Assembly (NCBI RefSeq): GCF_028274965.1
Contig: NZ_JAQCNO010000048.1
Span: forward strand, 62,001-126,000
Direction: 5' to 3'
Origin: Natronomonas sp.
GTDB taxonomy: Archaea > Halobacteriota > Halobacteria > Halobacteriales > Haloarculaceae
DNA length: 64,000 bases
In this document: piece after piece, positions 7,270 to 45,884 of the stretch
How positions within the stretch are numbered: the first letter of the stretch is position 1
How the letters are laid out: every line of letters begins with the position of its first letter
Notes under the pieces: generated by a model
The model's input: the letters and a program-made list of their open reading frames with translations, nothing else
What the model was told of the DNA's origin: nothing
Database searches by the model: none
Made by a program: the position numbers and the translations under genes

Positions 7270-8148
7270 TCAGCCGCCGTAACAGCGCCGCTCGACGAGT
7301 TCGTCGTAGGCCGCCCGGAGCGCTCCGGTGACCGGACCGCCGCCGACCTCGCGCTCGCCGAGGCGGGCGATCGGTCTGATCTCCCAGGTCGTGTTCGTCA
7401 GAAACGCCTCGTCGGCGTCACAGATTCGTTCGACGGCGTAGCGCCCGGTCTCGACCGTGAGGCCGGCCCGCTCGGCGAGTTCGATCGTCGTCTCGCGGGT
7501 GATCCCCGGGAGGACGGAGCCGAGTTCGGGCGTCCGGAGCGCGCCGTCCTCGACGAAAAAGACGTTGCTCGTCGCCCCCTCGGCGGCGCAGCCGTCGGTG
7601 TCGCACATGAGCGCCTCGTCGGCGTCGCGCCCCCGGAGTTCGAGACGGGCCAAGATCCCGTTGAGGTAGTTGTGCGTCTTCGCGCCCGCCGGCAGCGCCG
7701 CGTCGGGAACGCGCCGCGTTCGGACGCGCTCGACCGCCGCCGGGGCGTCCCAGACCGGGTCGCCGGCGGTTCCGCCCCGCTGGAGGCTGTCGACGTAGAC
7801 GACGACCGTCGGGTCCACGCGCTCGTCGGGGGTCAGCTTGCCCGGTTGGACGCCGCGGGTCACCGAGACCCGGAGGTACGCCTCCGAGAGGCCGTTCGCG
7901 GCGAGCGTCTCGTCGATCCGGTCGTCGATGTCCTCCGGCACGGCGTCGGCCATCCCGAGCGCCTCGCAGGTGCGGCGCAGTCGGGAGCGGTGTCGGTCCC
8001 ACAGAAAGACCCGGCCGCCGTAGACCCGACAGGTCTCGAAGGCGCCGTCGCCGTACCGGAACCCCCTGTCGTCGACGCTGACGGTCGCCTCGCCGCGGTC
8101 GATCAACTCGCCGTCGACGTGGTACTGGATCGTCAGGCCGCCTCGCAC
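7270..8148 (-). CDS. pabC: Aminodeoxychorismate lyase / class IV aminotransferase
   Basis: Class IV PLP enzyme of 292 residues. As third gene behind pabB and pabA it is best read as the lyase that turns 4-amino-4-deoxychorismate into p-aminobenzoate and pyruvate; a branched-chain aminotransferase activity is the alternative. Seen are YHVDGELI and RGFRYGDGAFET near the N terminus, the PLP-lysine region AGAKTHNYLNG, and TSNVFF followed later by LPGITR, all class IV hallmarks. The start is uncertain: GTG at 8148 lies in a GGAGGTG Shine-Dalgarno-like sequence, so translation may begin at the in-frame CTG (8136) that overlaps the pabA stop as CTGA. Confidence 0.8.
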   Translation of the reverse strand: MRGGLTIQYHVDGELIDRGEATVSVDDRGFRYGDGAFETCRVYGGRVFLWDRHRSRLRRTCEALGMADAVPEDIDDRIDETLAANGLSEAYLRVSVTRGVQPGKLTPDERVDPTVVVYVDSLQRGGTAGDPVWDAPAAVERVRTRRVPDAALPAGAKTHNYLNGILARLELRGRDADEALMCDTDGCAAEGATSNVFFVEDGALRTPELGSVLPGITRETTIELAERAGLTVETGRYAVERICDADEAFLTNTTWEIRPIARLGEREVGGGPVTGALRAAYDELVERRCYGG

Positions 8149-8723: not shown

Positions 8724-10213
8724 GGCTCCGGGGCCTCCGTTTCGGGGCCCGCCAGCGCCGCGTCGACCGCGGCGAGGACGCCTCGGGCCTTGTCGAGCGT
8801 CTCGTCGTACTCGGCGTCGGGGTCGGAGTCGTGGACGATGCCCGCGCCGACCCGGAGGTGATACCGCCTATCGCGCCGGACGAGCGTCCTGATGAGGATG
8901 TTCAGCGTCGCCCGCTCGTCGAAGCCGAACAGCCCGACGCTGCCGGTGTAAGGGCCGCGTCGCGTCCGCTCGACGTCGTCGATGATCGACATGGTCTTCG
9001 GCTTCGGCGCGCCCGTGATCGTCCCGCCGGGGAAGACGGCCCCCACCGCGTCGGCGATCGAGCGGTCCTCGCGGCGCGTGCCCTCGACGCGGCTGACGAG
9101 GTGCATGACCTCGGAGTACCGGTCGACGCGGCGGTACTCGCTGACGTCGACGCTGCCGTACTCGCTTACCTTCCCGAGGTCGTTCCGCTCGAGGTCGACC
9201 ATCATCGCGTGTTCGGCCCGCTCTTTGTCGTCCGATCGGAGCGTCGCCTCGAGTTCCGCGTCCGCCGCGGCCGTCTCGCCGCGGGGGCGCGTCCCGGCGA
9301 TCGGCTCGGTCGTCAGCCGGTCGCCCTCGACGTCGAGCAGCAACTCGGGGCTCGCGCTCACGATATCGACGCCCGGGAACTCGACAAGCGCGGAGTACGG
9401 CGCGGGGTTGACACGCCGGAGGGAGGCGTACGCGTCGACCGGGTGGACGGTCGCCGGGGCCGAGAGCCGCTGGGAGACGTTCGCCTGGAAGGTGTCGCCG
9501 TCCCGGACAGACGACTTCACCGCGCGCACGCGATCCCGGAAGGCGGATCGCCCACAGTCGCTCTCGAAGGCCGCCCGCCCACCGGCGGCCGGGGGGCGGC
9601 CGACGGAGCGATCCCCCGAGACGACCCGGGCGACCAGTTCCCGGGCGCGATCGAGGCCGTACTCGTAGGCGGCGTCGGCCGAGTCGTGCGCCGAGAGCCG
9701 GGGGCAGGCGGTGATCCGGAGGGTCGTTTCGCGTTTCGTCGGCGTTTCCCACGCGGCGACGCGGTCGTACGTCGCCAACTGGAGTCTCGGAAGCCCGCGG
9801 TCGTCGGTCGTTCGGTCGGGGATCGGTTCGATCTCGCGGGCGATGTCGTAGGACAGCCAGCCGAACACGCCGCAGGGGTACGGCACCTCACAGCCGCCGC
9901 GCTCGAGGGACTCCCCGGCGATCGCGGCGTCGATCGCGGCGAGGGAGGGCGATCCGTGCGGCGCGGCGTCCCCGAGCGGAACCGCGTCCGCCGAGACCGT
10001 GATCCGCTCCGTCGGGTCGATCGCGAAGTAGCCCCATCCGCGTCGGCCGCCGCTCGTCTCGACGAGGAGGTCCCCGCCGTCGCCGCGGCGGGCGCGGCGG
10101 TAGGACTCGAAGGGGTCGGCGACGCGGATCCGTATCTCGACCGGAACGCGGGCGTCGTCGGCCGCCGCCGCGGCCGTCTCGACGAAGCGTTGTCGGTCGG
10201 TGAGGACTCGCAT
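8720..10213 (-). CDS. pabB: Chorismate-binding component I (aminodeoxychorismate synthase type)
   Basis: A 497-residue chorismate-utilising enzyme, first gene of the pabB-pabA-pabC operon. The C-terminal domain has the family motifs [24 protein letters not shown], and [14 protein letters not shown] followed by [11 protein letters not shown]. The residue after PI is Ala (PIAGT), as in anthranilate synthase TrpE, rather than the Lys (PIKGT) used as nucleophile by the E. coli PabB. The operon points to PABA, the residue leaves anthranilate possible. The start ATG at 10213 has a TATA-like GGTTATTTTCC at 10233-10243 at leaderless spacing. Confidence 0.85.
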
Positions 10214-33252: not shown

Positions 33253-33966
33253 TCAGACGGCCCGCTCGGAGCGTCTGATCGCGCCCGTGACGAGATAGAC
33301 GAACGGCGTGTCGACGAGCGCGATGAGCAGTTTCAGCGCGTACTGCCCGACCATGAGCGCGACGACCTCGCTGTTGGGGGGTTGGGGGCCGATCCCGAGG
33401 GTCTGGGGGACGAGCCAGAAGGCGATCCCGACGAAGATGACCGTGTCGACGAGTTGACTCGTCGCCGTGGAGCCGACGTTCCGGAGCCACAGCCGCTCGC
33501 CGTCGGTCGCCTTCCCGATGGCCTCGAAGACGAGCACGTCGAGGTTCTGGCTGACGAGGTACGCGAGGAGGCTCCCGGCGACGATGTTCGTCGAGGCGCC
33601 GAGGACCAGTTCGAACGCCGCCGGATCGACGCTCGAGGCGTGGGCGGGCGCGAGGATCGTGCTCCAGACCAACGCGAGGACGAGAAAGTTCATCGCGAAC
33701 GCGACGTTGACGAGCACCTGCGCGGCCCGGCGGCCGTACAGTTCGGCGTAGCAGTCCGAGGCGAAAAACGTGAACGCGTAGGCGAGCGCCGCCCCGGGGA
33801 GCGCCAACTCCGCGCCGGCCAGCGGCAGCGACACGGGGAGTTCGAACGACAGTATCTTGGCCGCCGTCAGTTGGGCGGTCGCGAGCGCGGCGACGAACAC
33901 GGCGGCGAGGGCGACCGAACCGGCCGGCGGTGTCGGGGCCGAACGCCGGGCGGTCGCCTCAGCCAT
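33253..33966 (-). CDS. Queuosine precursor transporter (QPTR/VUT, YhhQ family)
   Basis: A 237-residue six-helix membrane protein with the family core ATAQLTAAKILSFE, a helix with FFASDCYAELYGRRAAQVLVN, and ASTNIVAGSLLAYLVSQNLDV near 130-150. In bacteria YhhQ imports preQ0/preQ1; haloarchaea use preQ0 for archaeosine in tRNA, so import of preQ0 or a related 7-deazaguanine is the best guess. It begins inside the end of the ribbon-helix-helix gene (ATG 33966, eight-base overlap), suggesting co-expression. Confidence 0.87.
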   Translation of the reverse strand: MAEATARRSAPTPPAGSVALAAVFVAALATAQLTAAKILSFELPVSLPLAGAELALPGAALAYAFTFFASDCYAELYGRRAAQVLVNVAFAMNFLVLALVWSTILAPAHASSVDPAAFELVLGASTNIVAGSLLAYLVSQNLDVLVFEAIGKATDGERLWLRNVGSTATSQLVDTVIFVGIAFWLVPQTLGIGPQPPNSEVVALMVGQYALKLLIALVDTPFVYLVTGAIRRSERAV

Positions 33967-34138
33967 CGTCCTCCTCGAGTCGGCCGTGGCGGGCGTCGAT
34001 CTCGTCGAGGCGATCGAGCGTCTTCCGGACCGACGCCCTGATCGCGTCGCTCCGGTTGACGAACTTCCCGTCGTCGCCGACGTGTTCGTCGAGGTCCGCA
34101 AGCAGTTCCGCCGGGACCTCGACGCTTATCTTGGGCAT
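33959..34138 (-). CDS. Ribbon-helix-helix (CopG-family) DNA-binding protein
   Basis: A 59-residue protein: MPKISVEVPAELL forms the beta-ribbon, ADLDEHVGDD helix 1, and NRSDAIRASVRKTLDRLDE helix 2 with the usual NRSDAIR turn. It is too short to be picked up by a length filter. A TATA-like CTTAATGAGT at 34161-34170 sits 28 bp upstream. Overlap with the YhhQ-type gene by eight bases suggests one mRNA; it may autoregulate this operon or act elsewhere as the antitoxin-type family sometimes does. Confidence 0.85.
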   Translation of the reverse strand: MPKISVEVPAELLADLDEHVGDDGKFVNRSDAIRASVRKTLDRLDEIDARHGRLEEDDG

Positions 34139-34205: not shown

Positions 34206-36413
34206 TCAGTCGGCCGGTTCGGCGCGCTCGGCGCCGCGGCGGCCGCCGAAGGTGTAGAGCCAAAGCAGCGCGATCCCGGCGCCGTAGGCGGCGATCACCG
34301 GCAGCCCGAGGAGGAACATCGTGAACACGCCACGGGGCGAAAAGAAGGCCCCGAGCGCGAGCACGGCGATGGCGAACTCCCGCCAGCGGGCGCGCATCCG
34401 GCCGTACGGGACGATCCCGCCGCGGTGAAACAGCAGCATCGAGACGGGGACCATCACCAACAGCCCGATGCCGACGGTGAAAAAGAAGACCATCCAGCCG
34501 TAGTTGCTGATCCGGTATGCGATGACCATCTCGGCGCGCAACACGTCGGCGGCGAGCCACGAGATCGCGGCCGGGGCGACGTACAAAAAGCCGAGGAGGC
34601 TCCCGAGCGTCATCGACGTGAGGAGGCTACCGCCCCACACGAGGAGCACGCGGCGATCGCCGCGGGCGACACCGCGGTCCTTCAGCGAGGGCCACGCGTA
34701 GTACAACAACAGCGGCACCACGGCGGCGACCCCGAAGATCACGGAGACCTTGAGCATGAAGATGAGCGCCTCGACGGGGTGAAGCGTGACGATCGAGACC
34801 TGCTCGGCGGCGAAGGCGTCGGGCATCCCCCTGACGAACTGCTGGTGCAGTCGGCCGATCCCGCCCTGGTACAGCACGAAGAACGTCCCGGCCATGACGG
34901 CGGCGAACAGCCCGACGAGCCGGAACGACTTCGACGTGATGCTCTCGAGGACGAACCGGATGTCGTAGGCGTAGCCGCCGATGTCGTCCTCGTCGATGTC
35001 GTCCTCGCTGAACGCGTCGAGGACGCCGGCCCCCCGCGTCGCGAGGATCCGCCCGTCGTCGACCGCGGCCTCCGCGTTCGCGTTCGCGTTCGGGGCCGCC
35101 GCCGACGCGGAGGTCCCGCCCTCGCTGACGTTGGCGTTGGCGTCGCCCTCGTCGTCCTCGTCGGCCGCCGCGGCCTCGTCGAACCGATCGAGGATCGCCT
35201 GTGCGCGGTCGGGGTCGTCGTCGTCCATCGCGCCGCCGGCGAGCGCCAGCGCCTCCTCTTCGTCCATCTCCGCGAAGGCGGCCCCGGGTGCCGAGCGAAC
35301 CCCCTCGAGGTCGAGGTCGGCGACGTCGATCGCCGCCGGGTCGCGCTCAAGTGGATCCTCGGGGGCCTCGAGGCTATCGTAGACGTAGTACGCGAGGCCC
35401 ACGGCGGCGAAGACGACCCCATAGAGCGACCCGACGACGGCGAAATAGAGCGGTTCGCCGACGCCGTAGCCGACGCCGGCGTCGATGAAGCGGTACCGCG
35501 ATCCGAGGGCGGCGAGGGCGTCGTTGACCGCGGCGGCGCCGCCGTAGGTGTAGAAGGCGTACACGAGCCCGAGGCCGAGTAGGTACAGCCCGAGGAGGAC
35601 GTTCCAGCGATCGCGGGCGGTCCCGGCGGGGTCGATCGATCCGCGGGAGCGTCTGGTCGTCACGACGATCTTCGCGAGGTACAGAGACACCCCATACAGC
35701 GTGACCAGCGGGACGGCCCACATGATCTGCGTGAAGGGGTCCGGCGGCGAGAACAGCGCGCCGAGGACGAAGATGCCGAGGACGGCGTACTTCCATCTGT
35801 CCCGGAAGGTCTCGTAGGGGACGATCTCGGTGTACGAGAGCGTGCTCATCAACAGCGGCAGTTGCGCCGCGAGCCCGAACGACAGCGAGAGGATGAACAC
35901 GAACTGGGCCCACATCGAGATCGAGTACGTCGGCTGAAAGCCCGCTCCGACCGCGTTGTCGGCCAGGAAGGCGAACATGATCGGAAAGAAGAGGTGATAC
36001 GCGTAGGCGACGCCCCCGACGAACAGCCCGGCGCTGAGGAGGGCGAACGCCGCCCCCTTCCAGCGCGGGAGCGAGTCGGGCCAGCGGCCGCGGTTTTTCA
36101 GCGAGTCCCGGCCGAAGTACGCGAGCGCCGGAAGCATGACGATGATCCCCGCGACGAGCCCGATCTTCGCCTGAAGCAAGATCACCTCGAAGGGCGTGAT
36201 CGCGACGACGACGATGTCGGGGTGGGCGTTCAGATCCCGCTTGAGGATGTCCCACACGTAGAGCCGGAGGACGGTGAAGATCCCGAGAAACCCGATCAGA
36301 AAGACGATGAAGACCTTCTGGAGGTGCTTCTGTGCGACCCGAAGCAGCGAGCCGAGTTGGGCGCGGCCCTCCGAAACCGTCCGGGCGACATCGTCGTCTA
36401 CAGCGCTAGACAC
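34206..36413 (-). CDS. tatC2: Twin-arginine translocase TatC, tandem fused form (TatCt)
   Basis: A 735-residue receptor of the Tat pathway made of two TatC domains in one chain, as known in haloarchaea (TatCt). The first domain runs about 20-380 (helices, then YAYHLFFPIMFAFLADNA, VLGALFSPPDPFTQIMWAVPL), the second about 490-735 (VVPLLLYYAWPSLKDRG, ALGAFFSPRGVFTMFLLGLPV). Between them is an acidic, Asp/Ala/Asn-rich stretch of about 110 residues. I choose the GTG at 36413 rather than ATG 36443, since GGTTGATAACC is 27 bp upstream. It is divergent from tatC1. Confidence 0.92.
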   Translation of the reverse strand: MSSAVDDDVARTVSEGRAQLGSLLRVAQKHLQKVFIVFLIGFLGIFTVLRLYVWDILKRDLNAHPDIVVVAITPFEVILLQAKIGLVAGIIVMLPALAYFGRDSLKNRGRWPDSLPRWKGAAFALLSAGLFVGGVAYAYHLFFPIMFAFLADNAVGAGFQPTYSISMWAQFVFILSLSFGLAAQLPLLMSTLSYTEIVPYETFRDRWKYAVLGIFVLGALFSPPDPFTQIMWAVPLVTLYGVSLYLAKIVVTTRRSRGSIDPAGTARDRWNVLLGLYLLGLGLVYAFYTYGGAAAVNDALAALGSRYRFIDAGVGYGVGEPLYFAVVGSLYGVVFAAVGLAYYVYDSLEAPEDPLERDPAAIDVADLDLEGVRSAPGAAFAEMDEEEALALAGGAMDDDDPDRAQAILDRFDEAAAADEDDEGDANANVSEGGTSASAAAPNANANAEAAVDDGRILATRGAGVLDAFSEDDIDEDDIGGYAYDIRFVLESITSKSFRLVGLFAAVMAGTFFVLYQGGIGRLHQQFVRGMPDAFAAEQVSIVTLHPVEALIFMLKVSVIFGVAAVVPLLLYYAWPSLKDRGVARGDRRVLLVWGGSLLTSMTLGSLLGFLYVAPAAISWLAADVLRAEMVIAYRISNYGWMVFFFTVGIGLLVMVPVSMLLFHRGGIVPYGRMRARWREFAIAVLALGAFFSPRGVFTMFLLGLPVIAAYGAGIALLWLYTFGGRRGAERAEPAD

Positions 36414-36434
36414 GAGAGGACGTATTCCGTTCGC

Positions 36435-36445
36435 GGTTATCAACC
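36435..36445 (-). promoter_or_regulatory. TATA-like element for tatC2
   Basis: GGTTGATAACC on the minus strand, centred 27 bp before the GTG at 36413. It lies partly inside the reading frame of the alternative start, which argues against that start. Confidence 0.6.
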
Positions 36446-36473
36446 TTTTCCGTTCGGTCCTCCGAGAGAGAAG

Positions 36474-36483
36474 GCTTACAACC
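36474..36483 (+). promoter_or_regulatory. TATA-like element for tatC1
   Basis: GCTTACAACC, centred 27 bp before the ATG at 36505. About 38 bp separate it from the divergent tatC2 element. Confidence 0.55.
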
Positions 36484-36504
36484 GACGAGAACGGATCGCG
36501 GGTG

Positions 36505-37278
36505 ATGGCAGAGACCGCCGACGGGAGCTACGACGCCGAGGAGGGGATCGTCGGCGAGGGCCCCGAAAGCGACGAGGAGATGCCGCTTGCGGACCACATC
36601 GAGGAGATGGTGTACCGCCTCGGGATCGTCCTCGTCGTCGTCGCGATCGTCTCAGGGATCGTCTTCCCGTTCGGCGAGCGGATAATCAACTTCCTGTGGT
36701 ACTCGGTGCTTCCGGGCGGGGACATCGCCCGCCCGCGGGTGTACCACCCGCTCGGGCTCATCCTCGCCCGGCTGAAGGTCGCCACGCTGGCCGGGTTCGT
36801 CATCGGACTGCCGGTGTTCGTCTACCAGACGTACCTGTTCATGCGCCCAGGGCTCTACCCGAACGAGCGTCGGTACTACCTCGCGTCGGTGCCGACGAGT
36901 CTCGTGTTGGGCGTCGTCGGCGTGCTCTTCGCGTACTTCCTGATCCTGCCGGCGATCTTCACGTACTTTCTGACGTACTCGCAGGACGCCGCCGTCATCG
37001 CCTTCGGGCTCGGCGACACGTTCGGTCTCATCGTGCTGATGATGGGGCTGTTCGCCGCCGTCTTCCAGATCCCGCTTTTCGTCATGCTCGCGATCATGAT
37101 GGGCCTGACGACGCGGCGGTGGCTGGCCGCAAAGCGGCTGTACTTCTGGGGGGCGTTCCTGGGGATCGCCTTCCTGTTCAGCCCGGACCCGACCGGGATG
37201 GCCCCGATCCTCGTCGCGGCGACGATGATCGGGCTGTTCGAGGCGACGCTTCTGGTGTTGCGCTGGGTCGGGCGCTGA
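36505..37278 (+). CDS. tatC1: Twin-arginine translocase TatC, single form (TatCo)
   Basis: A 257-residue, six-helix TatC. After an acidic head, MPLADHIEEMVYRLGIVLVVV carries the conserved Glu-bearing first cytoplasmic segment for signal-peptide binding, followed by FVYQTYLFMRPGLYPNERRYY near 110-130 and FLFSPDPTGMAPILVAATMIG near the end. Haloarchaea send most secretory proteins through Tat, so the pair tatC1/tatC2 is likely essential. Converges on the methyltransferase gene with a 12-bp gap. Confidence 0.94.
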   Translation: MAETADGSYDAEEGIVGEGPESDEEMPLADHIEEMVYRLGIVLVVVAIVSGIVFPFGERIINFLWYSVLPGGDIARPRVYHPLGLILARLKVATLAGFVIGLPVFVYQTYLFMRPGLYPNERRYYLASVPTSLVLGVVGVLFAYFLILPAIFTYFLTYSQDAAVIAFGLGDTFGLIVLMMGLFAAVFQIPLFVMLAIMMGLTTRRWLAAKRLYFWGAFLGIAFLFSPDPTGMAPILVAATMIGLFEATLLVLRWVGR

Positions 37279-37290
37279 ACGGAGGGCGTT

Positions 37291-38250
37291 TCACCCCTCG
37301 CGTCCGCCGGCGGCCGGGCGCTCGACGCGTCCGAGGAGATCCAGTTGGTGCGTGAGATACAGGAGTTCGCCGGCGGCGAGGCGCTCGCGGCGGTCGGCGA
37401 GCCACCCCTCGAGCGCCGCGGCGTCGGCGTCCTCGGCGTCCTCGGCGTCCTCGGCGGCCGCGAGCACCTCGCCGACGGCGCTCTCGACGGTGTCGAGGAC
37501 GTGCCGGAGGAAGTAGGCCTCGTCGGCGGGGTACTCGCCCTCTACCGGACGGACGACCCAATCGGACCCGCCGACGCTCGATACCGCGACGCCCGGCGTC
37601 GCCCGGAGGTGATCGAGGACGTCCCCGCCGGCGCGGCTGCTCCCGCCCGGTTTGGCGTCCATGTGGGCGTGGTACCGCTCCTCGACGACGCCGTCGGCCG
37701 GGTGGGAGGGCCGGAACCGCGTCGCGCCGTCGAACGTGATTGGAAAGTAGTACAGACCGCCCGCCGCGAGCGCCCCAAGCAGCGCGTCGACGGCGTCGAG
37801 ATCGAGGAGATCCAGCAGCGCGGACCCGACGAGGACATCGTACTCGCCGGGGTGGGCGGCGGCGTGGGCGGCGGCGTCGGCGGCGACCGCCTCGAGTTCG
37901 ATCGTCCCGTCCGGTCGCCGGAGTTCGATCCGCTCTTCGGGGGTCGCGGCGATCGAAACCGCCCGGTCGGCCGCCCACTCGCGGAGGTACGGCTCGACGC
38001 CGGCGAGCGTCTCGGCGTCGACGTCGACGGCGGTGTACCGGATCTCGCCCGCCGGCAGCGCGTCCCACTCTACGAGCCGCGCGATCATCGTTCCGATGCC
38101 CGCACCGACCTCCAAGACCGAGAGCGGGCCGTCGGCGGCCGCCGCGCGGTCGGCTGTCGCCTCGCGGAACGCCCGGAACGTCCGGCGATCGAGCGCGCGG
38201 TCGTCGACGGTCCGTTTGGCCCGGAGGTACCGCCGGAAGCCGTCGGTCAC
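37291..38250 (-). CDS. SAM-dependent methyltransferase, class I
   Basis: A 319-residue soluble methyltransferase, last gene of the dehydrogenase-PTPS-glycosyltransferase operon. The SAM-binding motif VLEVGAGIGTMIARLVEW is near 45-62, the acidic motif TAVDVDAETLAG near 73-84, and DVLVGSALLDLLDLDAV near 140. An Asp/Glu/Ala run (EDAEDAEDADAA) follows near 275. Its ATG overlaps the glycosyltransferase stop by four bases, so it is translated together with it. The acceptor is unknown; the operon suggests a small molecule. Confidence 0.85.
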   Translation of the reverse strand: MTDGFRRYLRAKRTVDDRALDRRTFRAFREATADRAAAADGPLSVLEVGAGIGTMIARLVEWDALPAGEIRYTAVDVDAETLAGVEPYLREWAADRAVSIAATPEERIELRRPDGTIELEAVAADAAAHAAAHPGEYDVLVGSALLDLLDLDAVDALLGALAAGGLYYFPITFDGATRFRPSHPADGVVEERYHAHMDAKPGGSSRAGGDVLDHLRATPGVAVSSVGGSDWVVRPVEGEYPADEAYFLRHVLDTVESAVGEVLAAAEDAEDAEDADAAALEGWLADRRERLAAGELLYLTHQLDLLGRVERPAAGGREG

Positions 38251-39305
38251 GCCGCCACCCCCGCGGTGTCGGCGAGGAGGCGGCGGACCCGGGCCGTCGT
38301 CTCCGGCCAGCCGGGGTGTCGCTCGTAGCGCCGCCTCGCGGCCGTTCCCATCGCGGCGAGCAGGTCGGGGTCGTCCGCGAAGCGCTCGATCGCGCGGGCG
38401 ACGGCCGCCGGGTCCCCGGGGTCGACGAGGACGCCGGTCTCGCCGTCGGTGACCGTCTCCTCGGCGCCGCCGGCCCGGGAGGCGATGGCGGGCAGCCCGA
38501 AGCTCATCCCCTCGAGGTAGACGATGCCGAACCCCTCGTACCGCGAGGGGACCGCGAGGACGTGGCCCGCCGCCAGCGTGCTCGACAGCGCCTCATCGGA
38601 GAGTTCGCCGGCCATCCGGACGCGATCTGCGAGGCCGTTCCGTCGGACGTCCCGCCGGGCGTCGGCGGCGTAGTCCTCGTCGAGGTGGCGTCCGACGACG
38701 GTCAACTCGGCGTCGGCGTCGGCGTCGGCGAGCCCCGCGATGAGCGTTCGGAGCCCCTTCCGCGGCGTGACGTTCCCAACGAAGACGACCCGCAGGGGGC
38801 GCTCGCGCGCGCGGTGCTCGATCGTCTCCTCGTCGATCGTGGGGTCGAACCGGTCGCCCGCCGGCGGCGCGACCGCGGTCCGGTCGGCGTCGACGCCGAG
38901 GCGAGTGACGACGTCGCGGGTAGGACGGCTGTTGCACACCACGCCGTCGACGGTCCCGAGGTACCGCCGCTCGACGGCGCGGTACAGCGGCGTCAGCCGC
39001 CGGGGTTCGCTCGAGCGCAGGTGGTGTACGACGCTGACGATCGGGTACGGCAGCGTCCGGTTGAGGCCGACGAGCGACGGGTGGGCAAGTTCGTCCTGCA
39101 GCATGACGTCGACGTCGACCCGGAGGCGGCTGCGGAGCCGGGGCGAGGCGTTGTCGAGAAGCCCCCGGGGGTAGCTCCGCCAGGGGAGCTCAACGACGTC
39201 GACGGTGTCGCCGGCCCGCCGGAGCCCCTCGACGAGCTTCCGGTCGTACCGGAACCCCCCGGAGCGTCCCCCGAGGCTGCCGTACAGCGTCAGTCCGACC
39301 CTCAT
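38247..39305 (-). CDS. Glycosyltransferase, GT4 family (GT-B fold)
   Basis: A 352-residue glycosyltransferase. The N-terminal half starts MRVGLTLYGSLGGRSGGFRY; the C-terminal half has FVGNVTPRKGLRTLI near 180, PSRYEGFGIVYLEGMSFGLP near 260-280 with the EGF-type nucleotide-sugar motif of GT4, and SRAGGAEETV. The ATG at 39305 overlaps the PTPS-like gene stop by four bases. Its donor and acceptor are unknown. Position in one operon with a pterin-type enzyme opens the option of pterin glycosylation. Confidence 0.88.
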   Translation of the reverse strand: MRVGLTLYGSLGGRSGGFRYDRKLVEGLRRAGDTVDVVELPWRSYPRGLLDNASPRLRSRLRVDVDVMLQDELAHPSLVGLNRTLPYPIVSVVHHLRSSEPRRLTPLYRAVERRYLGTVDGVVCNSRPTRDVVTRLGVDADRTAVAPPAGDRFDPTIDEETIEHRARERPLRVVFVGNVTPRKGLRTLIAGLADADADAELTVVGRHLDEDYAADARRDVRRNGLADRVRMAGELSDEALSSTLAAGHVLAVPSRYEGFGIVYLEGMSFGLPAIASRAGGAEETVTDGETGVLVDPGDPAAVARAIERFADDPDLLAAMGTAARRRYERHPGWPETTARVRRLLADTAGVAA

Positions 39306-39679
39306 GTGGCGCCGGTGTAGCTCGCGGCCGCGGCGTCGTTCTCCCAGACCGTCACGGTCAGCTCCTCGATCGTGTCGGCGGTCACGTCGTCGGTGACGCG
39401 CTCGAAGACGACGCGGGCGAAGCGCTCGACGCTGGGGTTGTAGCCGTCGAACTCCGGGAGGTCGTTGAGCAGTTCGTCGCGGTAGCGGTCGGCGAGCCCC
39501 TTGAGGGCCGCCTCGACGTCGTCGATGTCGATGAGGTACTCGTGTTCGTTCAGTTCGGGACCGCGGAAGGTCAGTTCCACCTCGAAGTGATGGGAGTGCG
39601 GGACCCCTTCGGGCCCCGGGTTCGGAACGGTGAGGTAGTGCTGTGCCACGAAGTCTGTCAGCACCGTTGTCGAGTACAC
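39302..39679 (-). CDS. 6-pyruvoyltetrahydropterin synthase/QueD-fold protein without the catalytic Cys
   Basis: A 125-residue protein of the PTPS/QueD tunnelling fold. The zinc triad is His14 (VAQHYL), His28 and His30 (PEGVPHSHHFEVEL). In QueD and PTPS a catalytic Cys sits four residues before the second His, but here Glu24 stands there and the protein has no Cys at all. Glu substitution is a known mark of PTPS-III enzymes, which make 6-hydroxymethyl-dihydropterin for folate. NPSVERFA is the pterin-anchoring Glu region. It overlaps the glycosyltransferase gene; the name QueD should not be applied by default. Confidence 0.82.
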   Translation of the reverse strand: MYSTTVLTDFVAQHYLTVPNPGPEGVPHSHHFEVELTFRGPELNEHEYLIDIDDVEAALKGLADRYRDELLNDLPEFDGYNPSVERFARVVFERVTDDVTADTIEELTVTVWENDAAAASYTGAT

Positions 39680-39742
39680 GGTGGGTGCTACGGGCGGCAG
39701 CCACCTAAATCCGGAGGGCGAACCTGGGGCGGGGTCGACGGC

Positions 39743-40732
39743 TCACTCGTAGCGAAAGGCGACCTGGACGGCCTCGTCGGGCCGCTCGTCGAGGAGTCGG
39801 TAGGCCTCGTCGGCGCGTCCGACGTCGAACTCGTGGGTGAAAAGCGCCGAGAGGTCCGTCTCTCGGAGCCACGAGCGGACGACGTCGAGGCGCCGCTGTT
39901 TGTCCCACCGATCGGCGTGATCGGGGTCGATCCGGCTCACCTGGCTGCTCCGGATCCGAATGTGGCTGCGGTGGTAGGCCCTGCCGAGATCGAGCGGGAC
40001 GCGTTTGGTCCCGTACCACGAGCCGACGATCACCCGCCCGGCGTAGCCGGTGACCGAGATCGCGTCGTCGAGCGCCTCGGGGTTGCCGGAGAGTTCGAAC
40101 GTCACGTCGGTGTCGTCCTCGAGTGCGCCCTCGAGGGCCTCCGGGGCGACGGCGCGGTCGGCGCCGAGGGACTCCGAGAGCGCCCGGCGCGTCCCGTGGC
40201 GATCGACCGCGAGGAGGTCGGCGAGCGGGAACGAGGCGAGCAGCGCGGTCGTCAACAGCCCGACCGGACCCTGCCCGAGGACGGCGGCGCGGGCGCCGAT
40301 CCGCGGGCGGGCGTCCATGACGAAGTTGACCGCCGCCTCGGCGTTCGGGATCAACAGCGCGCGCTCGGGCGAGAGCGTGGTCGGAACGAGCGTCTCGGGC
40401 TCCGCGAGGAAGTGGCTCTCGTGGGGGTTAAACGCGAACACGCGGCGATCGAGCCACGCGTCGTCGACCGCGCTTCCGAGCGCCGTCACGCGGCCGACGG
40501 TCGCGTAGCCGTACCGCAGCGGGTACGAGAAGGTGCCGTCGAGGGCGTCGATCGTCTCGTCGGTCTCGAACTCGTCCGGCACCTCGTCGCGGTACACGAG
40601 CATCTCCGTCCCCGGACTGATCGCCGATCGCTCCGTCCGGACCCGCACCTCCCCGGGGCCCGGGTCCGGGATCTGTTTCGATCGGACCTCGACCGATCGC
40701 GGGCCGGTGAAATACAGCGCCTGACCGGTCAT
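39743..40732 (-). CDS. MDR-family dehydrogenase, BchC-like (no zinc-ligand Cys)
   Basis: A 329-residue medium-chain dehydrogenase-type oxidoreductase. The N-terminal SAISPGTEMLVYRDEVP resembles BchC and other sugar-linked MDR proteins, and AAVLGQGPVGLLTTAL near 150-165 is the NAD(P) Rossmann loop. There are no clustered Cys ligands, so no structural zinc. I start at ATG 40732; an upstream extension in frame contains the tandem repeat at 40791-40823 and is not conserved-looking. It is the first gene of the operon with PTPS-like, glycosyltransferase and methyltransferase genes (63 bp before the second). Confidence 0.8.
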   Translation of the reverse strand: MTGQALYFTGPRSVEVRSKQIPDPGPGEVRVRTERSAISPGTEMLVYRDEVPDEFETDETIDALDGTFSYPLRYGYATVGRVTALGSAVDDAWLDRRVFAFNPHESHFLAEPETLVPTTLSPERALLIPNAEAAVNFVMDARPRIGARAAVLGQGPVGLLTTALLASFPLADLLAVDRHGTRRALSESLGADRAVAPEALEGALEDDTDVTFELSGNPEALDDAISVTGYAGRVIVGSWYGTKRVPLDLGRAYHRSHIRIRSSQVSRIDPDHADRWDKQRRLDVVRSWLRETDLSALFTHEFDVGRADEAYRLLDERPDEAVQVAFRYE

Positions 40733-40886: not shown

Positions 40887-41756
40887 TCACAGATAGCCGA
40901 GCGCCGCGAGGCGCTCGCGATCGGTTTCGGCCCCGTAGACGCGCTCGACGGGGAGCGGTTCCGGCGGCGAGCGCGTCGGCGCGAGCGTCCCGCGGTCGGT
41001 GCCCGTCGTCTCGGCCCACGGAACCGAAAGAAGCGCCGGGACCGGCGTGTGCATCGGGTGGCCGTACAGCCCCCACTCCCCGAGGAGGTTGCCGTGGTCG
41101 GCGGTGATCGCGATCCGGCCGTCGACGTTGCGCCGCAGCGTCGCAACCGACTCGAGGACGTACCGGAGGTTCGCCTCGGCGGCCGCCCGGACCCGGTCGA
41201 CGGCGACCTCACCGCGGCGGAGCAACACCCACGGGTTCGAGGCGCTGCTTTCGGCTCCGGTGCGGGCCATCCCGTCGTCGCCCTCGATCGGGTCCGGGAC
41301 GAAGGGGTGATGCGGCTGCATGTAGTGGACGACGAGTCGGGCCGGATCGCGCTTGCGGGCCGCCGCGACCGCCCGGTCGGTGATCGCCGGGGCCGGGACG
41401 GTCCCCACCTCCTCGTCCCAGGCGTACTTCCAGACCTCGTCGAGGGCGGCGAAGGCGTCGGCCTCGAGGTACCGATCGCTCCAGGTGTTGCCGGTGACCA
41501 TGACCGTTCGGGCGGTCTCGGGGCGGTCCTCGAAGGTGCCCTCGAGCCACTCCGAGGAGGAACTGCCGACCGATCGGACGCGGTCGACGCCGGACAGAAA
41601 GCCGAACTCGGGCGCGACCGACCGGAGCAGGTCGACCCGACAGGCGTCGAGGACGACGAGGACGTCCCACGGCCGGTCGTAGACGTTCGTCCCGTAATCG
41701 AGCCGCCGGCCGATCGCCTGTAGGCCGCGCAGGTAGGCGGTTCCGAGGCGGCTCAT
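40887..41756 (-). CDS. Sulfatase/alkaline phosphatase-superfamily hydrolase
   Basis: A 289-residue soluble member of the alkaline phosphatase fold, common in haloarchaeal glycan clusters. Seen are WDVLVVLDACRVDLLR near 33-48 (metal-binding Asp, and a Cys-x-Arg resembling but not equal to CxPxR of sulfatases), VHYMQPHHPFVPD near 143-155, and ITADHGNLLGEWGLYGHP near 222-238 for the second metal site. Its Cys is unlikely to become formylglycine. It probably removes or transfers a phosphate or sulfate group. Upstream of it the divergent fusion gene starts. Confidence 0.8.
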   Translation of the reverse strand: MSRLGTAYLRGLQAIGRRLDYGTNVYDRPWDVLVVLDACRVDLLRSVAPEFGFLSGVDRVRSVGSSSSEWLEGTFEDRPETARTVMVTGNTWSDRYLEADAFAALDEVWKYAWDEEVGTVPAPAITDRAVAAARKRDPARLVVHYMQPHHPFVPDPIEGDDGMARTGAESSASNPWVLLRRGEVAVDRVRAAAEANLRYVLESVATLRRNVDGRIAITADHGNLLGEWGLYGHPMHTPVPALLSVPWAETTGTDRGTLAPTRSPPEPLPVERVYGAETDRERLAALGYL

Positions 41757-41815
41757 GCCCGGTTCTGTCACACGCCCGGTTCGCCCCGGGGCGACTAAAC
41801 GACACCGCCGGGAGG

Positions 41816-41824
41816 AATATATAG
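41816..41824 (+). promoter_or_regulatory. TATA box deciding the GTG start of the Gfo/Idh-AKR fusion
   Basis: AATATATAG centred 26 bp before the GTG at 41845. With leaderless spacing it makes the GTG start the best choice; the ATG at 41755 would lie 60 bases upstream of the TATA box. Confidence 0.75.
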
Positions 41825-41844
41825 CTCCCGCCCCGGGTAGGGGT

Positions 41845-43815
41845 GTGAACTGCCTGCTTGTCGGGGCCGGCGCGATCGCGCCCGCGTACGCGGCCGGCCT
41901 CGAAGCGGACGGGAGCGCGCTGTCGCTGGCCGGCGTCTGTGATCTCGACGGGGCGCGGGCAGCGGCGCTGGCCGACGAGTACGGCTGCCCGTCGTTCGAG
42001 GAACTGGAGGCGGCCCTCGAGGCGGTCGAGGCGCCGCTGGTCGTCAACCTGACGAGTCACGCGGCCCACGCGGCGGTGACGCGGGCGGCGCTGTCGGCCG
42101 ATCGCCACGTCTACTCGCAGAAGCCGCTGGCGCTCGAGGAGGGGACGGCCGAGGACCTGCTCGCGCTGGCGCGGCGCCGGGGGCTCGCGCTCGGGTGTGC
42201 GCCCGGGACGCCGCGGGCGCCCGCACAGCGGCGGGCGGGGCGGCTCGTGGCCGACGGCCGGCTCGGCCGCGTCGGGTTGGGGTATGCCCACGCGCACGTC
42301 GGGCGGGTGACCGACTGGCACGACGACCCGCGGTCGTTTCTCGACATCGGTCCGCTGTACGACGGCGGCGTGTACCCGCTCGCGCTTTTGATCTCGTGGT
42401 TCGGGCCAATCGAGCGCGTCCGCGTCGCCGACGCGTTAGACGTCTGGCCGGATCGGGAGACAGAGCGGCCGAGCGCGCCGAGTCACGTCGAGGCGACGCT
42501 CGCGTTCGCCTCGGGGCCGATCGTCCGGCTGACGGCGAGTCTGTACGCCCCCCACCGGAGCCGGGAGTTCTATGGCCTGGAGCTACACGGCGACGACGGC
42601 TCGGTGTACCTGGCGGGGACCGGCGCGATGGGGACGACGCCCGGGGACGTCCGGTTCGGTCGCCTCGGCAGGGGGTACACCGACGTCCCACAGCAGTGGC
42701 CGACGCGGGAGTACCGCTACGTCGACCCGATTGAGGACCTCGCGGCCGGCGTCGCCGAGGGAACCCCCTCGCGTGCCGGCGGGCGTCGGGGGGCTCACGT
42801 CGTCGCCGTCTGCAACGCGATCGAGCGGGCGGCGGCCGAGGGCGGCCCACTCGGGGTGTCGGCGGTCGGCGTCGAGGCGGACCCGGTCCCCGCGCCGATC
42901 GCCTCGGTCGAACGGACGGGAAGCCGCGGGAGCGCGATCCGGCTTCCGCCGATCGGGTTCGGCTGTTCGCGCTACCGGGACGGTGAGTACGTCGATCGGG
43001 TCGACTCGATCGAGACCGCGCTGGACGCCGGGTACCGCCTGTTCGACAGCGCGGAGCTGTACGGCAACGAACACCGGATCGGCGAACTGCTCGCCGCGCC
43101 GGGCGCGCCCGACCGCGAGTGCGTCTTCGTGCTCGGGAAGGTCTGGCGGACGAACCACCGCCGGGAGCACCTCCTCGAGGCGTGTGCGGGCAGCCGCGAG
43201 GAGCTCGGCATCGACGCTTTCGAGTGCTACGCGCTGCATTGGCCCGGGGCCCTATCGCACCGCGGCGAGCTCCGGCGGCTGGCCGAAAAGCCCCCGGACG
43301 AACAGGAGCGGCTGACGTTTCCGGAGGACGGCGAGGGGACCCTCGAACGGGCGGACGTGTCGCTGTCGAGGGCGTGGGAGAACCTGGAGGCGGTGTACGA
43401 GCGCGGCTGGGCCGACAGCCTTGGCGTCTGTAACGTCTCGCGGGCGCAACTGGAGACCGTCCTCGAGACGGGGCGGGTCCGGCCGGCGCTCGTCCAGATC
43501 GAGCGCCACCCCTACCGGCCGCGATCAGAGCTCGTCTCGCTGTGTCACGACCGGGGGATCCGGGTGGTCGCGCACTCGCCGCTGTCGGCCCCCGGGCTGT
43601 TGGACGAGGCGGTGTTGGCCGAGATCGGCGCGGACCGGGGGCTCTCGCCGGCCGGCGTCGTCCTCGCGTGGAACGTCTCCCGCGGCGTCGTGCCGATCCC
43701 CTCCAGTACGACCCGCGAGCACGTCGTTTCGAACCTCGCGGCGGCGGCCGAGCGCCTGACCCCCGCCGAGCGCCGGCGGATCGGATCACTCCGGGATCCG
43801 GCATTCGAGCGGTAG
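41845..43815 (+). CDS. Gfo/Idh/MocA oxidoreductase fused to an aldo-keto reductase
   Basis: A 656-residue chain of two complete oxidoreductases. Residues 1-345 are a Gfo/Idh/MocA enzyme: LLVGAGAIAPAYAAGL as Rossmann loop, HVYSQKPLALEEG with the EKP-like motif reading QKP, and FLDIGPLYDGGVYPLAL in the substrate domain. Residues 355-656 are an aldo-keto reductase: PPIGFGCSRYRDGE, FDSAELYGNE (Asp and Tyr of the tetrad), GKVWRTN (Lys), and YALHWPGAL (His). Both tetrads look complete apart from the Gfo Lys-Pro motif. The start is GTG at 41845. Two sequential redox steps on one sugar-like substrate are plausible. Confidence 0.88.
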   Translation: MNCLLVGAGAIAPAYAAGLEADGSALSLAGVCDLDGARAAALADEYGCPSFEELEAALEAVEAPLVVNLTSHAAHAAVTRAALSADRHVYSQKPLALEEGTAEDLLALARRRGLALGCAPGTPRAPAQRRAGRLVADGRLGRVGLGYAHAHVGRVTDWHDDPRSFLDIGPLYDGGVYPLALLISWFGPIERVRVADALDVWPDRETERPSAPSHVEATLAFASGPIVRLTASLYAPHRSREFYGLELHGDDGSVYLAGTGAMGTTPGDVRFGRLGRGYTDVPQQWPTREYRYVDPIEDLAAGVAEGTPSRAGGRRGAHVVAVCNAIERAAAEGGPLGVSAVGVEADPVPAPIASVERTGSRGSAIRLPPIGFGCSRYRDGEYVDRVDSIETALDAGYRLFDSAELYGNEHRIGELLAAPGAPDRECVFVLGKVWRTNHRREHLLEACAGSREELGIDAFECYALHWPGALSHRGELRRLAEKPPDEQERLTFPEDGEGTLERADVSLSRAWENLEAVYERGWADSLGVCNVSRAQLETVLETGRVRPALVQIERHPYRPRSELVSLCHDRGIRVVAHSPLSAPGLLDEAVLAEIGADRGLSPAGVVLAWNVSRGVVPIPSSTTREHVVSNLAAAAERLTPAERRRIGSLRDPAFER

Positions 43816-43855: not shown

Positions 43856-44239
43856 ATGGCAACGGCCGACGCGCAGCGATCGACCCTTCGAACGGACACG
43901 CTGAACGGTCTCCACTGGCTCGGCATCGCCGCGGCGCTCGTCACCGCCGCCATCCATCTCCTCTTGGGCGTGCGGCTGTTCCCGAGCGGGCTCGGGATCA
44001 GTTTCGTCCTCGCCGGGGGCGGCTTTGTCGGGGCCGTCGTGCTCGTGTTGATCGACTACCGCCGCCGCGCGGTCTACGCCGCCGGGATCCCGTTCACGCT
44101 CGTCCAACTCGTCGCGTGGTACGTCCTGAACTTCGCGGGCGGGGGCCGGTCGTTCCCGGGCGAGGTGGGGACCTTCGGGGCGATCGACAAGGTTGCACAG
44201 GTCGTGCTCATCGCCGTGCTCGTCGCGCTGCTCCGGTAG
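43856..44239 (+). CDS. Small four-helix membrane protein, function unknown
   Basis: A 127-residue haloarchaeal protein with four hydrophobic helices (about 20-37, 44-66, 72-94, 107-126), short loops, and no charged active-site pattern I recognise. The start at 43856 is supported by a TATA box at leaderless spacing. It lies between the fusion gene and the CDP-alcohol phosphatidyltransferase gene, so it may belong to lipid or glycan metabolism, but that is position only. Confidence 0.7.
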   Translation: MATADAQRSTLRTDTLNGLHWLGIAAALVTAAIHLLLGVRLFPSGLGISFVLAGGGFVGAVVLVLIDYRRRAVYAAGIPFTLVQLVAWYVLNFAGGGRSFPGEVGTFGAIDKVAQVVLIAVLVALLR

Positions 44240-44411: not shown

Positions 44412-45176
44412 ATGGCCGGCCGACAGCCGCACCCGTCCGTCCGTCGTGGGGTCGGGGTCGCGGGACCGCTCGTCGCCGCGCTCGGGCTGACCGCCGTCCT
44501 GTGGGGGCTTCTCCCCGTCGGTCGGATCGGCCACTGGGCGGTCCACCCGGCGACGGTGGCGGGGTGCTGTTGGGCGGGACAGCTCTGGTACGTGAGCCAC
44601 AGCGTCGGTCGGGGCGCCGGCGACGCCGCGCTCGGGCTCGCAAACGCGCTGACGCTCGCTCGGGGCGGGCTGTACGCGGTCGTGGCCGGGTTCGTGATCG
44701 TGCCGGCCGGCACCGACCTCGCCTGGGTGCCGGCGCTGTGTTACGGCCTCGGCGTCGCGCTCGACAAACTCGACGGGGCCGTTGCCCGAATCGTCGGCGA
44801 GCCGACCGCCCTCGGCGCACGATTGGACACCGCCTTCGACACGTTCGGGTTCGTCGCCGCGCCGCTTTTGGCCGTCGCGTGGGGGCAACTCCCCGTCTGG
44901 TACCTCTCGATTTCGGCCGCGCGGCACGTGTTTCTCGGCGGCGTGCGCTGGCGGCGGCTCCGCGGGCGAGAGGTGTTCGATCGGCCCGACAGCGACCTCG
45001 GGCGGTACCTCGCGGGGCTCCAGATGGTGTTCATCACGGCCGCGCTCGCCCCGGTCGTCCCGACCGAACTCGTTCGGACCGCCGCGCCCGTCGTCCTCGC
45101 GCCGTCGCTTCTGGTGTTCTGTCGGGACTACCTCGCCGTCAGCGGCCGGCTGCCCGGAGCCGACCCGGGCGCCTGA
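44412..45176 (+). CDS. CDP-alcohol phosphatidyltransferase
   Basis: A 254-residue membrane enzyme that joins a CDP-activated lipid or alcohol with an alcohol acceptor. The complete CDP-OH motif is visible near residues 118-147: DKLDGAVARIV, then after a spacer GARLDTAFD, giving the four Asp of DxxDGxxAR...GxxxDxxxD. It has six or more helices and a hydrophilic tail. It could make an archaeal phospholipid headgroup such as a phosphoglycerol, phosphoserine or phosphoinositol form. The gene before it ends 170 bp upstream, with a weak small ORF between. Confidence 0.88.
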   Translation: MAGRQPHPSVRRGVGVAGPLVAALGLTAVLWGLLPVGRIGHWAVHPATVAGCCWAGQLWYVSHSVGRGAGDAALGLANALTLARGGLYAVVAGFVIVPAGTDLAWVPALCYGLGVALDKLDGAVARIVGEPTALGARLDTAFDTFGFVAAPLLAVAWGQLPVWYLSISAARHVFLGGVRWRRLRGREVFDRPDSDLGRYLAGLQMVFITAALAPVVPTELVRTAAPVVLAPSLLVFCRDYLAVSGRLPGADPGA

Positions 45177-45308: not shown

Positions 45309-45884
45309 ATGGCCACGGCCCCGATCAGCGAGTTCCTGCAGTACGTCCGGTGGATGGATGCCCGCGCCGTCGAGTTCGTCGTCGGGGTGCGGAGCCCGCA
45401 GTTGACGGAGGTGATGAACTCGGTCACCGGGCTGGGGTCGGTGACGGCCGGACTCGTGTTCGTCGGGCTGTTCTACCTGGCCGGGTGGCGCGAGGAGTTC
45501 CTCGTGACGATCGTGTCGCTGTCGGTGCTCGGGGTCGTCGTCGGGGCGTTGATGTCGCTCGTTCAGCGGCCGTTCCCGCCCCAGCCGATCTGTATGACCG
45601 GCGACGACGCGGCGGTCACCAGTTCCTTTCCCTCCGGGCACGCGGCCGCGGTCACGGTGTACGCGACGGTCGCGCGGTCCTCGGAGCGCCTGCCGTTTGC
45701 GGTCGTGAGCGTCCTCGCGGCGGCGATCGCCTTCTCGCGGGTCTATCTCGGGACGCACTACCTCTCCGACACCGTTTTCGGAATCGGGATCGGGATCGCC
45801 GCGGCGCTTTTCGCCGAGTGGGCGGTGGGCCGGACCGACGTCGACGCGCTCCTCGCACGAGTGCCGTTCGAGGTGGACCTCTGA
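45309..45884 (+). CDS. PAP2-type lipid phosphatase
   Basis: A 191-residue PAP2/acid phosphatase-fold membrane protein. Motif 2 reads SSFPSGHAAA near 107-116 and motif 3 SRVYLGTHYLSD near 138-149. Motif 1 appears as VQRPFPP: the Arg-Pro is there but the Lys six residues earlier is not seen, so the usual KxxxxxxRP is weakened. It presumably hydrolyses an isoprenyl or phospholipid phosphate. It sits six bases from the end of the methyltransferase gene on the other strand. Confidence 0.85.
   Translation: MATAPISEFLQYVRWMDARAVEFVVGVRSPQLTEVMNSVTGLGSVTAGLVFVGLFYLAGWREEFLVTIVSLSVLGVVVGALMSLVQRPFPPQPICMTGDDAAVTSSFPSGHAAAVTVYATVARSSERLPFAVVSVLAAAIAFSRVYLGTHYLSDTVFGIGIGIAAALFAEWAVGRTDVDALLARVPFEVDL

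Follow-up and report, generated by a model that had tools for sequence, protein, structure and literature searches.

Pteridine glycosides of cyanobacteria and Chlorobium start from GTP cyclohydrolase I (GCH I) and tetrahydrobiopterin. Enzymes of the PTPS fold are told apart by short active-site motifs, CxxxHGH marking PTPS-I, CxxxxxHGH PTPS-II and ExxHGH PTPS-III in the accessible parts of PMC5041015, and the accessible text of PMC8305020 states, citing the COG0720 paper, that deletion of HVO_1284 (arfA) leads to riboflavin auxotrophy. Here we describe a gene cassette from a stretch of 64,000 nucleotides of the haloarchaeon Natronomonas sp. (contig NZ_JAQCNO010000048.1, positions 62,001 to 126,000; hereafter the window), in which a PTPS-fold gene lies together with genes for a dehydrogenase (DH), a GT4-type glycosyltransferase (GT) and a methyltransferase (MT). 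We lean towards the view that a conserved pathway branching off riboflavin/deazaflavin synthesis has these four genes at its core, the best reading of its end product being a glycosylated, methylated and possibly lipid-anchored compound; the pathway seems to start from a riboflavin building block and to end in a compound that carries a sugar and a methyl group and perhaps sits in the membrane. As far as the open literature searched shows, the cassette and its product seem undescribed: no paper found there joins at least five of the six cassette gene-family names, no such pterin-lipid appears as judged from titles and the beginnings of abstracts, and the accessible parts of PMC5041015, PMC8305020, PMC5445326 and PMC13259868 give no account of a cassette with GT, MT, DH and CDP-alcohol phosphatidyltransferase (CDP-AP), or of its product. 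A first reading of the window made from its letters alone (the sequence-only reading) knew of no such pathway in haloarchaea, and within that literature this holds.

The core genes are:

39743..40732, minus strand: DH, a BchC-like medium-chain dehydrogenase without zinc ligands, 329 aa (Pfam ADH_zinc_N)
39302..39679, minus strand: PTPS-fold enzyme, 125 aa, GTG start, Glu24 at the place of the QueD cysteine (PF01242)
38247..39305, minus strand: GT4 glycosyltransferase, 352 aa (Glycos_transf_1)
37291..38250, minus strand: MT, a class I S-adenosylmethionine-dependent methyltransferase, 319 aa, GTG start (fold of the AlphaFold2 model)

The order on the minus strand is thus DH, PTPS, GT4, MT. The four reading frames of the sequence-only reading were confirmed, as were the 4-base overlaps among the last three genes, which lie at both the PTPS/GT4 and the GT4/MT junctions. 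DH is separated from PTPS by 63 bases, and because of this gap a single mRNA carrying DH with the other three genes is likely at most.

Conservation of the cassette in haloarchaea and bacteria

The cassette PTPS is present in 71 of 116 haloarchaeal genomes. At E-value limits chosen after the profile scores had been seen, and with Fisher values not corrected for kinship, MT occurs in 70, DH in 69, GT in 57 and CDP-AP in 61 of these 71 genomes, against 0, 0, 0 and 1 of the 45 genomes without PTPS; in the first look, no more than 20 candidates per genome were scored for MT and no more than 17 for GT, the best ones in each case. Linkage was followed in a profile census of 72 haloarchaeal loci from the 71 genomes (two loci in one genome, G038) over a range of 8.5 kb around PTPS; loci L001 to L030 were set aside and replaced by the longer L053 and L074 to L101 (L001 lies inside the window), and L102 to L106 were unused. 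DH lies within this range in 65 loci, GT in 52 and MT in 52, and all three are missing in two. Immediately upstream of PTPS and on the same strand stands DH in 56/72 loci, immediately downstream GT in 51/72; PTPS, GT and MT are consecutive in 36/72, and MT directly follows PTPS in 12/72. Twenty loci of QueD paralogues, from 20 of the same genomes, served as controls, and none (0/20) holds any cassette family at the thresholds used, the best DH-profile score there being 25.5 bits. A chance neighbourhood is rejected, since DH/GT/MT linkage is conserved in the 72 loci as against 0/20 controls. Scattering of the four families had been named beforehand as the adverse outcome; what was found is strongly positive, the families keeping together across haloarchaea by linkage as well as co-occurrence, and the small-molecule pathway that the sequence-only reading drew from the operon's enzymes is supported. 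That the genes form one pathway we regard as close to certain.

MT is unlinked to PTPS in 20 loci, and in 19 of the 20 genomes concerned it is present elsewhere. Alternative pairings were tabulated for these 19 genomes: MT pairs with CDP-AP in 11, GTP cyclohydrolase III (GCH III) with GT in four and GT with CDP-AP in two, and one larger set each was seen of MT-DH-CDP-AP and of GT-CDP-AP-DH-GCH III. No other evidence speaks as strongly for GCH III and CDP-AP being part of the four-gene pathway as these pairings do.

Upstream of the core the window holds five further genes, the last four on the facing strand:

40887..41771, minus strand: sulfatase/phosphatase-like protein, first gene ahead of DH and on the same strand (motifs and start by eye)
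41755..43815, plus strand: fused Gfo/Idh/MocA oxidoreductase and aldo-keto reductase, Gfo-AKR (Pfam)
43856..44239, plus strand: DUF7475 small membrane protein (PF24287, 57 bits)
44412..45176, plus strand: CDP-AP (PF01066, 57.4 bits vs 22)
45309..45884, plus strand: PAP2 phosphatase, adjoining CDP-AP (PF01569, 55 bits)

In the census DUF7475 is found in 44 loci, CDP-AP in 43, Gfo-AKR in 21, the sulfatase-like gene in 18 and creatininase in two; clustering of open reading frames gave PAP2 in six loci. CDP-AP and DUF7475 are likely further members of the pathway, Gfo-AKR and PAP2 perhaps so; membership is less sure for Gfo-AKR, which we treat as accessory, and uncertain both for PAP2 and for the sulfatase-like protein, which has no Pfam or NCBIfam match. 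The sequence-only reading overlooked the likely members CDP-AP and DUF7475, the possible members Gfo-AKR and PAP2, and the occurrence in bacteria. The best NCBIfam match of CDP-AP is archaetidylinositol-phosphate synthase (30.1 bits, below the cut-off of 180), and the protein stands nearest, far under cut-off, to archaetidylinositol- and phosphatidylinositol-phosphate synthases. Among the named loci, that of Natronomonas aquatica (L166) has a gene order identical to the window, with identities of 81% for PTPS, 80% for the sulfatase-like protein and 74% for Gfo-AKR. At the other end of the core, two divergent TatC genes adjoin MT (34206-36443, minus strand; 36274-37278, plus strand), one of them encoding a double TatC of 745 aa.

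Large plasmids also carry the cassette PTPS, in 10 records (among them L210, L211 and L212) from Haloarcula, Haladaptatus, Halobellus, Halomicrococcus and Natronorubrum; in eight of these it is annotated as 6-carboxytetrahydropterin synthase, a name that is probably wrong, and the remaining two show no feature at this place. One of the two cassettes of G038 (L053) has a PTPS split in two overlapping pieces (7643-8007), and the second (L052) has an intact PTPS with GCH III, DH and MT. A genome without PTPS carries a partial GCH III beside a cassette-type CDP-AP (G110:C1:1631061-1633279), a possible remnant of a lost cassette.

Among the best 80 of 223 PTPS relatives in the genome collection, 39 bacterial loci were found, from Chloroflexota, Bacteroidota, Pseudomonadota, Thermodesulfobacteriota, Myxococcota and, in one case, Actinomycetota. 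GT is present in 31 of them, DH in 28, RibD_C in 25, GTP cyclohydrolase II (GCH II) in 22, MT in 19, LPG_synthase_TM in 13 and CDP-AP in 12; four of the 39 hold none of DH, GT and MT, and many loci lie on short contigs. The order CDP-AP, LPG_synthase_TM, GCH II, RibD_C, DH, PTPS, GT recurs in L110, L117, L136, L144 and L160, with MT after GT in L110, L117 and L144. GCH II and RibD_C are read as a single open frame in 11 loci, of which four come from closely related Caldilineaceae. LPG_synthase_TM is joined to GCH II in the same way in L136. These fusions were checked by Pfam in L172 and L136 only, and the domain limits in L129 are unclear. In L117, both GCH II and RibD_C exceed their curated NCBIfam cut-offs, as does GCH II in L146. 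The Anaerolineales cassette L117 has in addition a CMAS/Methyltransf_25-type methyltransferase between DH and PTPS (9132-9995). More distant relatives of the cassette are the actinobacterial sets. Relatives of SCO6650 were found in 36 of 149 actinobacterial genomes at E 1e-3, many of them weak, and 11 loci were fetched from 11 of these 36; their PTPS fall under the census score cut-off and so outside the census counts. Eight of the 11 have RibD_C-DH-PTPS-GT, two of Streptomyces type have DH, PTPS, GT, GCH II and CDP-AP, and one has DH, PTPS and GT. The Streptomyces-type locus L199 reads GCH II, creatininase, LPG_synthase_TM, MT, GT, PTPS, DH, CDP-AP (assigned partly by Pfam).

A PTPS tree, limited by few columns and long branches, was built from 84 rows, comprising 28 haloarchaeal, all 39 bacterial, all 11 actinobacterial and six QueD sequences (those with a profile match among 10 loci tried), the broken PTPS of L053 being excluded. 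Haloarchaeal and bacterial rows fall in one clade (100/95), separate from QueD (100/99), and the 28 from haloarchaea group together (93/95), with two Bacteroidota rows as their neighbours (95/91). The gene has probably passed between haloarchaea and bacteria.

The enzymes of the cassette

The window PTPS matches PF01242 with 92.6 bits (gathering score 22.4) and its translation holds no cysteine, as the earlier label of a cysteine-less PTPS had it. At the position of the QueD cysteine, 151 of 152 aligned cassette PTPS have Glu and one has Asp. Three of those with Glu lack a regular HSH and were assigned by eye, and the 152 sequences are not independent, named and other haloarchaeal loci overlapping in species. 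His14, Glu24, His30 and Glu113 are invariant in 30/30 aligned PTPS and His28 is nearly so; Glu113 corresponds to the conserved Glu of PTPS structures that presumably holds the 2-amino-4-oxo edge. The Asp-His pair of QueD, which has a catalytic role, is not kept at the aligned places as judged by eye. The AlphaFold2 model (pLDDT 94.7) has as its best fold match SCO6650 (TM 0.89, 28% identity), followed by QueD. The window motif, ExxxHSH, differs from the CxxxHGH of PTPS-I/QueD and, the protein being cysteine-free, from the CxxxxxHGH of PTPS-II; it also departs from the ExxHGH of PTPS-III, with Glu four instead of three residues ahead of the first His and HSH instead of HGH. At the PTPS-IV signature FGPAQ the window has PGPEG and the actinobacterial relatives have FGPA. 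The neighbours typical of PTPS-IV, PF00925 and PF01872, are found in bacterial cassettes (GCH II 22/39, RibD_C 25/39) and neither at the window nor at the other haloarchaeal loci.

These features bear on the name that the enzyme carries in public records. PF01242 membership and, in three plasmid records, a product name and Gene Ontology term point to QueD, which makes 6-carboxytetrahydropterin (CPH4) on the way to preQ0 and archaeosine. This role is rejected, and we give it a negligible probability: Glu replaces the cysteine, the clade is distinct from that of haloarchaeal QueD (100/99), the partners are others, and 20 QueD loci lack those of the cassette. With QueC scored as present below E 1e-30, no association with PTPS is seen (Fisher p 0.54; both in 48 genomes, PTPS only in 23, QueC only in 33, neither in 12), so that 23 of 71 cassette genomes are without QueC. 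The window genome, in an assembly 94% complete, has weak partial QueC matches only and a single PF01242 protein, as have the four other genomes of its genus; the window itself encodes a queuosine precursor transporter (33253-34101, minus strand; TIGR00697, 143 bits, above the cut-off of 51), which in a genome without true QueC or QueD-type PTPS suggests preQ0 salvage. That the enzyme makes only the preQ0 precursor, the case in which the sequence-only reading would have dropped its pathway, is very unlikely, and so is the queuosine name.

Haloarchaea are expected to need folate and generally make coenzyme F420, and the absence of the cassette PTPS from 45/116 haloarchaeal genomes speaks against a general role in either. 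A folate enzyme substituting for dihydroneopterin aldolase, of PTPS-III/VI type, would agree with the carboxylate in the active site and with the validation of PTPS-VI in folate synthesis in the accessible parts of PMC5041015; it is most improbable given the motif ExxxHSH instead of ExxHGH and the absence of any folate gene among the recurrent neighbours. Service in F420 synthesis is scarcely more probable. The same source, in its accessible parts, assigns PTPS-IV to F420 from unpublished work, PMC5445326 in its accessible parts sees RibD_C and PF00925 (there called FolE2) beside PTPS-IV, and a ribityl-pyrimidine precursor would be in common. However, among the genomes searched for CofH, which stand for 24 of the 39 bacterial loci, it scores above cut-off in two, near it (332-335 bits vs 374) in four and as a weak partial match in three, and is absent from 15; incompleteness of metagenome-assembled genomes explains some of these absences, hardly most.

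DH matches ADH_zinc_N (41 bits), and its best NCBIfam match is TIGR01202 (bchC) at 64.2 bits, far under the cut-off of 291.25, so that of the earlier label 'BchC-like' a distant kinship is what stands. In 132 of 134 DH homologues from the fetched loci, Ser38, Gly40, Glu42 and Gly74-Tyr75 occupy the zinc-ligand places of medium-chain dehydrogenases/reductases (the other two are gapped); zinc-dependent members presumably carry Cys and His-Glu there, and BchC, we assume, likewise lacks these ligands. The GT4 label is borne out by matches above cut-off to Glycos_transf_1 (120.6 bits) and, in the N-terminal part, Glyco_transf_4 (44.7 bits), the nearest solved sequences being Tll1590, D-inositol 3-phosphate glycosyltransferase and phosphatidylinositol mannosyltransferases. 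The window MT has no Pfam or NCBIfam match; its designation as a methyltransferase agrees with the class I fold of its AlphaFold2 model (pLDDT 95.4; best E 1.2e-12, TM-scores about 0.5) and with a bacterial homologue matching Methyltransf_23 and Methyltransf_12 in Pfam. The fold search returned generic class I methyltransferases only, with no hint of the acceptor.

GTP cyclohydrolase linkage and the predicted pathway

GCH III belongs to the cassette in 28 of the 72 haloarchaeal loci, and 11 of these 28 genomes hold a second copy elsewhere. Haloarcula pelagica has Gfo, CDP-AP, GTP cyclohydrolase IIa, DH, PTPS and MT all in the same orientation. The window genome has two GCH III copies (G000:C16:27743-28465 and G000:C24:3547-4128), one of them cut by a contig end, and the other has a RibD_C-like gene at a distance of about 3.6 kb. 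In the bacterial sets the motif RAMALQ of GCH II (n=24) has Met in the two Streptomyces-type loci and Tyr in 21, with no motif match in one. In Spoonamore's work SCO6655, which has this Met, reportedly halts at the formyl intermediate, which is the GCH III product. Given the GCH II/III linkage, a riboflavin-type aminopyrimidine becomes a likelier substrate than dihydroneopterin triphosphate, and we think it probable, with good confidence, that the pathway is fed by GCH II/III chemistry.

The pterin part of the sequence-only reading fares worse. A pterin bearing a sugar and a methyl group and derived from dihydroneopterin (tri-/cyclic) phosphate via a folate-type cyclohydrolase, MptA/FolE, would accord with the PTPS fold and its zinc site, with an operon that also holds GT and MT, and with an active-site carboxylate conserved as in PTPS-III. 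But the conserved partners are GCH III in archaea or GCH II with RibD_C in bacteria, the Glu of PTPS-III is one residue nearer to HGH than that of the cassette, and GCH I, for which no specific search was made, is not among the families at the few loci with named genes; starting from dihydroneopterin triphosphate is thus not supported, and we consider this version improbable. Somewhat more improbable still is a route to surface glycolipids that took over the PTPS fold for an unrelated sugar substrate, with the GCH II/III linkage reflecting shared regulation only. GT, Gfo-AKR, CDP-AP, LPG_synthase_TM and PAP2, all typical of glycoconjugates, are present as it would predict, whereas the GCH II-RibD_C and LPG_synthase_TM-GCH II fusions tie in nucleotide chemistry and Glu113, at the pterin edge, is invariant.

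From the observed gene content, co-occurrence, linkage, fusions and active-site changes we infer the reactions of the riboflavin-derived branch and their order, together with ring and lipid anchor. GCH III in haloarchaea, or GCH II in bacteria, would convert GTP to a 2-amino-4-oxo-pyrimidine ribosyl phosphate, and a RibD_C-type reductase, dedicated in bacteria and presumably the housekeeping ArfC in haloarchaea, would give the ribityl form. The zinc-less DH may then oxidise a side-chain hydroxyl, and the PTPS fold may grip the 2-amino-4-oxo edge with the side chain on the zinc, Glu24 in place of the QueD cysteine allowing it to rearrange or close the substrate. GT4 would add a sugar and MT a methyl group, and CDP-AP would probably tether the resulting compound to a lipid, a membrane step being further suggested by LPG_synthase_TM and PAP2. 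Inositol-phosphate-type synthases use a polyol phosphate, a property that ribityl phosphate shares. In a concrete version, reduction by RibD_C and oxidation by DH at C2' would amount to an Amadori rearrangement; ring closure by the 5-amino group could then give a dihydroneopterin-type monophosphate and with it a pterin without GCH I; were DH to act elsewhere than at C2', the ring might stay open or be N-ribityl. A pterin ring in the product is conceivable, somewhat short of an even chance, and we put lipid anchoring at about the same level.

A number of observations weigh against the proposed branch. GCH III is not linked in 44/72 haloarchaeal loci, the cassette copy is the only one found in 17 of the 28 genomes that have it, and since a sole GCH III must serve riboflavin too, linkage by itself is no proof of use; around both copies of the window genome the stretches were read, and neither adjoins cassette genes. 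Haloarchaeal cassettes have no dedicated RibD_C, and a zinc ligand is replaced in 9/152 PTPS (first His of HSH to Asn in six, second His to Arg in three), which also argues against an ordinary zinc enzyme. GT is missing in 14/71 and CDP-AP in 10/71 PTPS genomes at the thresholds used; the profile census recovers GT in two of the 14 (G082, G088) and CDP-AP in five of the 10 (G006, G008, G009, G015, G064), and because 12 PTPS genomes remain without GT and five without CDP-AP, these two enzymes are maybe not needed everywhere.

A bolder and rather unlikely extension would make the product a class of membrane lipids common to archaea and bacteria, with a GTP-derived head group on CDP-archaeol or CDP-diacylglycerol and including a route to pterins independent of GCH I. 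The head group, a ribityl-aminopyrimidine or pteridine, would be oxidised and rearranged by DH and the cysteine-less PTPS, would receive a sugar and a methyl group, and would be joined to the lipid by its phosphate-bearing side chain as in phosphatidylinositol-phosphate synthesis. The gene set, kept in two domains, across several bacterial phyla and 71 of the 116 sampled haloarchaeal genomes, offers one shared and testable pathway for both the orphan PTPS-IV-type proteins and the odd second GTP cyclohydrolases. Its predicted product, a metabolite derived from GTP, may have escaped notice in ordinary work-ups of lipids or flavins.

Comparison with known systems

The pteridine glycosyltransferase systems of cyanobacteria and Chlorobium, which place a glycosyltransferase on a pteridine (PMC5683033, in its accessible parts), would resemble the cassette in this step and differ in their start from GCH I and tetrahydrobiopterin. 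BchC shares with DH a similar zinc-less motif and is its best NCBIfam match, at 64 bits as against 291, and no chlorophyll genes are among the recurrent cassette neighbours. QueD is alike in the tunnel-fold monomer, the zinc histidines and the pterin-edge Glu; the cassette PTPS differs in having neither the cysteine nor, by eye, the aligned Asp-His pair, and in its genome partners. The upper riboflavin/deazaflavin pathway (GCH II/III, ArfB, ArfC/RibD_C) is alike in its first enzymes, in GCH II and RibD_C forming one frame and in the creatininase family gene at L199 and L210. It is set apart by the company of DH, PTPS, GT, MT and CDP-AP in the cassette, where no lumazine or FO synthesis genes are among the recurrent neighbours. 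The closest likeness is SCO6650/PTPS-IV of Streptomyces, the nearest solved fold to the window PTPS. Its differences are the FGPAQ signature, Ala instead of Glu at the QueD-cysteine position in 11/11 actinobacterial rows, and the accompanying Streptomyces-type GCH II with Met in RAMALQ where the 21 other bacterial loci have Tyr; its 95%-identical relative at L199 is partnered by DH, GT, MT, CDP-AP, LPG_synthase_TM and GCH II.

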